Virus record (IMG/VR): IMGVR_UViG_3300032282_000615 | Coordinates: 1 to 20,212 of that record | From: a virus | DNA length: 20,212 nucleotides | Direction: 5' to 3' (one strand) | In this document: piece by piece, positions 14,463 through 15,527 of the stretch | Position numbering within the stretch: the stretch's first letter is position 1 | Layout: each line of letters starts with the position of its first letter | Made by a program: the position numbers and the translations under genes | The notes under the pieces: generated by a model | Told to the model about the DNA's origin: nothing | The model's input: the letters and a program-made list of their open reading frames with translations, nothing else | The model's database searches: none

Positions 14463-14652
14463 GTTTGTAAAAATTAGTGCAATACGCACACATTCCCTGT
14501 CGTAACTGGCTAGACACTTGACCGCAACCGTCACAAATCCAATCTTTAGGATATGTCGGCGGTTTGCGTCTGGTGCGATACATAAAAATCATGCCACCAA
14601 CCGTGATTGCGGCTGACAAGTAAAACACGAACATCCAGTCCCAGAGTGTCAT
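14431..14652 (-). CDS. Membrane-anchored zinc-ribbon protein
   Basis: The 73-residue protein has an N-terminal hydrophobic helix at about 5-25, a basic stop-transfer (RTRRK), and a cytoplasmic domain with CDGC (40-43) and CAYC (55-58), a four-Cys zinc-ribbon pattern. A ribosome site (AAGGG) lies eight bases before the ATG. It runs leftward and converges on the late operon, overlapping the secreted-protein gene by 32 bases. It belongs to the leftward transcript together with, or downstream of, the repressor gene. Function unknown; a membrane-tethered zinc protein could act in host takeover or exclusion, but nothing here proves it. Confidence 0.65.
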   Translation of the reverse strand: MTLWDWMFVFYLSAAITVGGMIFMYRTRRKPPTYPKDWICDGCGQVSSQLRQGMCAYCTNFYKPTEHCRRRDN

Positions 14653-15019
14653 AGCGTTAACCCTTATTGTTATTATTTAAAATAAAGTACCCCTACCCTT
14701 ATACCCACCCACCGTAGTAGTTGCCTACTGTGATAGTTGAGGATAAATCCTTTACGACAGACCTGTGCTTTCGCTTGTGGCAGGCGGCTCACCCCACCCC
14801 TAAACTCCCTAAAACAGTAGCAGTCCTTGCAGCTGTAGAAGATCACAATTTAGAGTAAATGGTTTTACTAGATTTCTCTAGTCTGTCTATATCCTGTTCG
14901 ATTTCTCTACTAGGGCGTGCGGGTCACACGGGATACAACTTTATATCTTTACTTAACCTGTTCTGGGTACGAGTGGTCACTCTATTAGCTAATGCGCCCT
15001 GACAAGTAAGTGACAGACA

Positions 15020-15165
15020 ACAAAAAGCCCTAATAAGGAGGCTTTAGGCTTGGTTGCCACATACAAAAGGTGAAGCACCACCATTCTGTAGCTTTGACGA
15101 AGCCGCCTTATTAGGGCGTTCTATTCGTTGTGCTTAACTACTAAAGGTTTACCAGACCTCTAGAT
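15020..15165 (-). ncRNA. Candidate structured small RNA
   Basis: A leftward transcript started by the promoter at 15200-15172 would begin near 15165. It has no protein frame with a ribosome site. An arm at 15117-15100 can pair with 15044-15027 (17 of 18 positions), forming a long closing stem. Inside it, 15089-15063 folds into a hairpin of six plus four base pairs with one bulged base and loop GUGCUU. The closing stem is followed directly by TTTTTGTTG (15026-15018), so the RNA ends as an intrinsic terminator. Promoter, structure and terminator in one line make a dedicated RNA of about 145 nt likely. Family unknown; a decoy, antisense or protein-binding RNA is possible. Confidence 0.6.
15021..15044 (-). 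terminator. Intrinsic terminator, leftward
   Basis: On the minus strand a short stem AAAGCC/GGCTTT (or the longer stem with the upstream arm at 15117-15100) is followed by TTTTTGTTG. It would end the small RNA and part of any transcript coming from the repressor gene. On the plus strand the far arm is followed only by GTTCTATTCG, so it is a weak terminator for rightward late transcription. Confidence 0.65.
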
Positions 15166-15171
15166 ATATCA

Positions 15172-15200
15172 ATTATTTCATCGTTTGTTCGATGTGTCAA
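15172..15200 (-). promoter_or_regulatory. Strong sigma-70-type leftward promoter
   Basis: The minus strand carries a perfect -35 TTGACA (15200-15195), a spacer of exactly 17, and AATAAT (15177-15172), five of six to the -10 consensus. A TGA directly before it gives the extended -10 element TGn. It is the best promoter match I found in the window. It lies downstream of the repressor gene and ahead of no protein gene, pointing to a dedicated RNA. One arm of a 12-base inverted repeat (15202-15213) abuts the -35. Confidence 0.65.
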
Positions 15201-15201
15201 G

Positions 15202-15309
15202 TTGTTGGTATGTTACTCGCTGCACTATGCAAGCTATTTATAACGACTAACTAGTATGGTTAAAGGGTACTACCCTTGAGCAATAGAATCCGCTTTCACA
15301 TACCAACAA
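15202..15309. repeat. Spaced 12-base inverted repeat with inner palindrome
   Basis: TTGTTGGTATGT at 15202-15213 is the exact reverse complement of ACATACCAACAA at 15298-15309. Between them, at 15263-15277, is an odd palindrome AAGGGTA-C-TACCCTT. One arm abuts the repressor stop codon, the other the leftward promoter. It could be paired protein-binding sites or the closing stem of a structured 3' leader of the repressor mRNA. There is no T-run, so it is not an intrinsic terminator. Confidence 0.55.
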
Positions 15310-15311
15310 TT

Positions 15312-15527
15312 TTAATTCAACTCGGGCCAGATTTGCGCCCAGTTAGGGATTTCTTTGCGAGTCCAAGCGCCATTAGACTTTGTTTCAATTTCCGTGGCTA
15401 ACATAATTAATTTGTCCTTTGCTATGCCGTTGTTACGCCATTGACTCACGGCTGAAGGACTGACACGACATAGCTTGGCTACGGCAAACGTACCGCCTAG
15501 TGCTTGGATGATGTCTGTTGTTTTCAT
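15312..15527 (-). CDS. Cro/YdaS-like helix-turn-helix regulator
   Basis: The 71-residue product has a single HTH: TTDIIQALGGTFAVAKLCRVSPSAVSQWRNNG at about 3-34, the layout of Cro and YdaS-type phage regulators. A short C-terminal strand region with WPEL at the end follows. Two in-frame ATGs exist (15542 and 15527). The second is preferred because the protein match begins there and a weak AAGA lies upstream. It faces the rightward early promoter across a 130-base gap that contains repeated candidate operators, so it very likely represses the early operon or itself. No partner CI-type gene is visible in the window. Confidence 0.82.
   Translation of the reverse strand: MKTTDIIQALGGTFAVAKLCRVSPSAVSQWRNNGIAKDKLIMLATEIETKSNGAWTRKEIPNWAQIWPELN

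Follow-up and report, generated by a model that had tools for sequence, protein, structure and literature searches.

A predicted double-pseudoknotted RNA of freshwater phages with its own promoter and a fast-changing self-matching code

The noncoding locus and its promoter

The window, that is the whole stretch of DNA analyzed here (20,212 nucleotides), comes from IMG/VR as a phage contig of 20.2 kb, and its genes include Erf-like, exonuclease, HNH, PAPS-reductase-like and endolysin genes. On the minus strand approximately 650 nt of noncoding DNA separate its Cro-like gene (15542-15312) from the late genes at their lysis end. A first-pass annotation had placed here a dedicated, undescribed small RNA with its own promoter, and all the promoter parts that it named are found on the minus strand (15200-15172): the -35 element TTGACA (15200-15195), a 17-nt spacer and the extended -10 element TGA-AATAAT (15177-15172), in which TG precedes AATAAT, with 11 of 12 consensus matches. 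Transcription is predicted to start at about 15165 and would yield an RNA of approximately 144 nt (15165-15022), the W-type RNA or element A, which ends in the T-run of an intrinsic terminator (15026-15022). No open reading frame of at least 50 aa covers this region, in agreement with the earlier statement that it holds no protein frame. The larger structured noncoding element that follows in the same direction, the downstream cargo B1 (15003-14690), has no visible promoter of its own.

Relatives were gathered from two gene anchors (the Cro-like and endolysin genes) and with RNA sequence patterns, and any invariance inside these patterns is therefore by construction. Over 59 different upstream contexts the top-scoring promoter reaches a mean of 10.3 of 12 consensus matches, compared with 6.2 at control places, spacers of 15-19 nt being allowed at real and control places alike. 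The end of the -10 element lies 4-7 nt from the first hairpin of the RNA, P1 (5-6 nt in 54 of the 59 contexts), and this near-constant distance suggests that transcription starts at approximately the first base of the RNA. The T-run contains at least four T residues in every collected copy.

The 17-nt promoter spacer (15194-15178, minus strand) holds an inverted repeat, CATCG-AACAAA-CGATG. Its arms co-vary in the relatives (CACCG/CGGTG, CTCTG/CAGAG and ATCTG/CAGAT) around a conserved GGAAAGAC centre, which gives it an operator- or hairpin-like appearance. Another structured-looking element (GTTGGTATGT...ACATACCAAC) is situated on the minus strand between the stop of the Cro-like gene and the promoter (15310-15205); at this site the relatives have a different, shorter element (CCTTTAGCAAGC...AGCTTYAG).

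Fold, covariation and the self-matching code

The RNA had originally been described as a closed rod with an inner hairpin. Indeed, the arms named at that time, 15117-15100 and 15044-15027, pair at 17 of 18 positions, and the inner hairpin (15093-15059) and the T-run are present. The calculated fold has an energy of -57.8 kcal/mol, compared with -37.3 ± 3.5 kcal/mol for shuffled sequences (z -5.8), and none of 200 shuffles is as good. The rod itself did not hold, however, and the simple rod or decoy reading is superseded by a three-way junction with two pseudoknots. The 5' hairpin P1 (15163-15141), in which 15163-15157 pair with 15147-15141 around the loop UCUGGUAAA (15156-15148), is followed by a linker and by the terminator or closing stem P2 (5' arm 15117-15100, 3' arm 15045-15027), which ends at the T-run. 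P2 encloses the inner hairpin P3 (15093-15059) and the small hairpin P4, GGC-AACCAA-GCC (15058-15047). The first pseudoknot (PK1) joins UGGU in the P1 loop to ACCA in the P4 loop, and in the second (PK2) six bases of the P1-P2 linker, AAGCAC (15135-15130), pair with GUGCUU (15078-15073) in the P3 loop.

In an alignment of 65 sequences from related phages, 94.7% of the cells are paired when both pseudoknots are included, and 31 of the 47 pairs have two-sided changes. Such changes occupy 504 cells, compared with 152 in shuffles, and no shuffle reaches the observed covariation. The P1 helix has two-sided changes at all six pairs and 99% of its cells are paired, while P3 (helices 8 and 9) has them in 10 of 11 pairs; the compensatory changes that the first-pass annotation would have taken as support for the 15117-15100/15044-15027 stem are present as well (helices 4-7). 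The target of PK1 was invariant in the first set of copies, because the search pattern had a fixed P4 loop. When the target was left free, six copies with UGGC/GCCA instead of UGGU/ACCA were found, together with one mismatch. The core sequences GGCUUCGUCAAAGC and GGCAACCAAGCCUAAAGC are strongly conserved, part of this core having been set by the search pattern. The fold has many G-U pairs and is much weaker on the reverse strand (consensus energy -24.6 vs. -40.5), and both findings point to a function of the minus-strand RNA. The inverted repeat of the promoter spacer means that DNA-binding sites may exist here, so an operator, an origin or a cruciform could be suspected instead of an RNA, or the structure could be due to chance. 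Such readings are contradicted by the covariation, the fold z score, the G-U pairs and the weak reverse strand, and we consider them extremely improbable.

All six pairs of PK2 show two-sided changes. In the alignment-wide count 87.7% of its cells are paired, which is probably an underestimate, since gaps introduced by MAFFT shift some of its pairs out of register. The helix that each copy forms with its own partner has a mean length of 6.21 bp, whereas permuted partners give 5.09 ± 0.10 bp, the maximum of 5000 permutations being 5.48. At least 5 bp can form between the linker and the inner region in 70 of the 71 copies, whose linker segments come in 47 distinct versions; these numbers include a few longer chance matches that lie off the PK2 register. 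In the phages most similar to the window the same place is taken by RNAs of unrelated sequence but shared layout (types I, II, III/IV and V). There the partner of the P1 loop is the far side of the inner hairpin, with 7.9 bp compared with 5.74 ± 0.22 bp after permutation (21 codes, the true number being about 18, since two or three are chance matches elsewhere).

The per-site rate of change in PK2 is also approximately seven times that of the remaining RNA (23 close pairs, which share sequences), a ratio somewhat inflated by the 21 bases that the search pattern fixed elsewhere. Between two copies (L176 and L178) there are 4 differences in 147 positions, each of which lies in PK2 and is compensating. 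This fast turnover hints at selection for change without proving it, and a self-matching code that evolves faster than its scaffold would be a direct and testable sign of specificity. Pairing of the code with the cargo was rejected, as its 6-mers are not clearly enriched there (0.24 for the own cargo vs. 0.18 for those of other copies).

In the first 20 nt past the T-run the W-type copies share a GCTTT-n-GCC motif. Back-pairing of this motif with AAAGC and CGGC in the RNA is conceivable, and it might give read-through transcripts a structure beyond the terminator.

Distribution of the RNA and its downstream elements

About 80 distinct copies of the W-type RNA were collected from viral contigs. 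A covariance model (R1) built from 65 copies matches the window at 15165-15020 with 123.4 bits, the window itself being in the training alignment, and nine more copies obtained with a looser pattern score 75-145 bits with the 65-copy model. Thirty freshwater phage contigs were searched over their full length, and in 25 of them the model finds one copy per contig; two additional weak hits lie on the opposite strand at the same sites and are shadows of these copies. One pattern hit (L172) was judged to be coding sequence and discarded as false. Bacterial hosts or prophages were rejected as carriers: the model matches none of 369 Gammaproteobacteria genomes, in a search run without a positive control, and a DNA pattern gives 9 hits in 84,980 bacterial and archaeal genomes, which are judged to be chance matches from their scattered taxonomy.

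Rfam 15 gives zero matches in the window at the gathering threshold and none at E <= 5 for 14640-15320, and neither GOLLD, ROOL, 6S nor any other Rfam family matches element A in 30 related loci at the gathering threshold. No earlier description of the W-type RNA was found in a literature search, which is weak evidence given its partial coverage. The unit of promoter, RNA and terminator is kept in dozens of unrelated phage contexts, which bears out the proposal of a dedicated, undescribed small RNA. As judged from the same fold in about 80 phage copies, with one matching pair of segments changing together, the W-type RNA is a real and apparently unnamed RNA family.

Behind the T-run there is no room for a further promoter, and the cargo is on the same strand. 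Of 119 copies, which span all layout types, the majority lead into a co-directional structured noncoding cargo belonging to one of several sequence classes, the structure having been tested for B1 and read for the other classes from sequence and the absence of open reading frames. In about 10 of the 119 an open reading frame begins no more than 70 nt from the T-run. One cargo cluster of 70 occurs behind every layout type (W, I, II, III/IV and V). A stem and T-run of this kind precede 41 of 41 distinct copies of B1/B2 cargo, compared with 10.6% of random places, the loci having been fetched partly via protein neighbours and partly via the RNA itself. B1 (~314 nt) has 83 consensus pairs, 16 of which show two-sided changes, and 0.6% non-standard cells (17 sequences). 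Its minus strand folds better than the reverse, and it has no Rfam match (E <= 5, 14640-15320). The sequences display the first module of a two-part cassette, in which promoter, RNA and T-run are followed by cargo.

Other phages have different cargo classes at the position of B1. In three loci (L068, L184 and L267, the last being MW202545) the cargo is the Betaproteobacteria-1 RNA of Rfam (RF02932), found in the same kind of phages directly behind an A-type module. This RNA is the cargo and not element A, which the RF02932 covariance model does not match. Acidovorax phage AP1 (L266) carries it without a recognizable A module. A tRNA-like cargo was rejected, since ARAGORN, applied to the cargo regions of 20 loci, calls no tRNA genes. 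The cargo RNAs of three loci (L178, L174 and L176) contain tRNA-like T-arm sequences (e.g., GGGTTCGATTCCCG), and ARAGORN does not call these RNAs tRNAs.

The first-pass annotation had suggested that the RNA might be a decoy of RNA polymerase or an RNase, or an antisense RNA. Neither role finds support in this analysis. The most variable part pairs with the RNA's own sequence, and the association that is conserved is the one with the immediate downstream element. More generally, the W-type RNA could be a free-standing sRNA that acts in trans on host or phage molecules by protein binding, as a decoy or by antisense pairing, the downstream element being a mere neighbour. The strong promoter and terminator of its own, the single copy per phage and the conserved core would all fit such an sRNA. 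Nevertheless, the cargo lies on the same strand without space for a second promoter, unrelated sequences of the same layout replace the W-type RNA before the same cargo, and no free hypervariable target-pairing region is seen, the variable strands pairing mutually. We regard a free-standing sRNA as possible if somewhat unlikely.

Primase-like replication proteins or Holliday junction resolvases are frequently encoded upstream. On the downstream side HNH endonucleases or terminase small subunits are frequent, and ParB genes are also common. No tyrosine integrase was found in 17 phage contigs, which makes a role in lysogenic immunity, as in P4, unlikely, and temperate-phage immunity was rejected on this ground. 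A late leader of the lambda PR'-6S-tR' or Q-like kind was rejected for the window, where the cargo is followed by lysis genes in convergent orientation, and a repeated operon leader like HK022 put is weakened by the one copy per contig.

The packaging RNA of phi29 has self-complementary loops, keeps its fold despite sequence change and forms rings. The code of the W-type RNA might similarly pair between molecules, giving dimers or rings like those of the phi29 packaging RNA, GOLLD, ROOL and OLE with a structural role together with the downstream RNA or in packaging. The code is hypervariable but self-matching, as this would require, and the downstream terminase, HNH endonuclease and ParB genes also speak for it. 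In type I the linker from P1 to the stem of ~22 bp has 1-2 nt, which would make simultaneous pairing within one molecule hard. Covariation can also arise from intermolecular kissing pairs in phage RNAs (PMC12286853). The linkers of the W type are, however, long enough for pairing inside one molecule, and we consider multimers quite unlikely. The phi29 packaging RNA is likewise a phage RNA of similar size with self-complementary segments; the W-type RNA differs in having neither a phi29-like layout nor an Rfam match. GOLLD and ROOL are also phage-borne and pseudoknotted with kissing loops, and one of the relatives, in MW202545, adjoins a tRNA cluster, but the W-type RNA is several times smaller, has another structure and lacks an Rfam match.

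A possible role in transcription of the cargo

The analysis supports a short transcription unit that would make a double-pseudoknotted RNA of ~144 nt with an intrinsic terminator. The c4 RNA of phage P1 is grouped with IsrK and P4 SeqA/CI as similar short phage RNAs. Just short of even confidence, our tentative reading is that the W-type RNA is a promoter-borne module that governs transcription into its cargo by means of its self-matching code, in the manner of Gifsy IsrK or P4 SeqA/CI. Most transcripts would end at the T-run and give the short RNA, and read-through past it would give the cargo RNA. The fold, read via the 6-bp code of PK2, might set this read-through in cis, or alternatively the short RNA might work in trans, with longer RNAs of its own kind as targets. 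On this view a fast-changing code would mean changing specificity of self-recognition. The near-fixed promoter distance, the covarying double pseudoknot, the one copy per contig and the co-directional cargo argue for such a module, while the Betaproteobacteria-1 RNA of AP1, with no recognizable A module, argues against it.

No mutually exclusive or competing antiterminator helix was found in the RNA, and read-through may be slight, since the terminator looks strong. A riboswitch-like leader, in which the conserved core would bind a ligand or a phage protein that decides on termination, could account for a pseudoknotted conserved core with a terminator, and genes do follow in loci such as L169, L065, L070, L073 and L074. 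The missing antiterminator helix and the mostly noncoding cargo speak against it, as does the hypervariable helix, a feature that riboswitches are not known to have, and we hold it to be highly unlikely.

The module that we favour resembles the IsrK and P4 SeqA/CI RNAs, which are short phage RNAs with their own promoter, a Rho-independent terminator and self-complementary segments, and in which read-through yields a second stable RNA (PMC4825925). The terminator of IsrK is partially read through and its short form acts on the long form, P4 SeqA being its structural homologue (PMC4825925). The same layout of promoter, terminator and downstream element is present in the W type by sequence, and its self-complementary segments are shown by covariation, while read-through would be the inferred part of the likeness. 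The W-type RNA differs in lacking a sequence or Rfam match and in having a three-way junction, two pseudoknots and a hypervariable 6-bp code; its cargo is mostly noncoding and there is no sign of lysogeny.

Structured phage RNAs are common and mostly without known function, and the W type would add to phage biology a structured family with two pseudoknots backed by dozens of covarying sequences. Its strict linkage to downstream RNAs, including the orphan Betaproteobacteria-1 RNA, may offer a first handle on what such orphans need for expression. A more speculative and rather unlikely extension is that lytic freshwater phages possess interchangeable promoter-borne RNA modules, with PK2 as a rapidly diversifying self-recognition code that controls the output of large structured RNA cargo. 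If so, this would be an RNA-based identity system by which the transcripts of one phage are kept from cross-acting on those of another.

In MW202545.1 (L267:3240-4109) a five-tRNA cluster, a promoter, a type-I-like module (loop GTGGAAAAC, target GTTTTCCAC) and the Betaproteobacteria-1 RNA follow each other in tandem.
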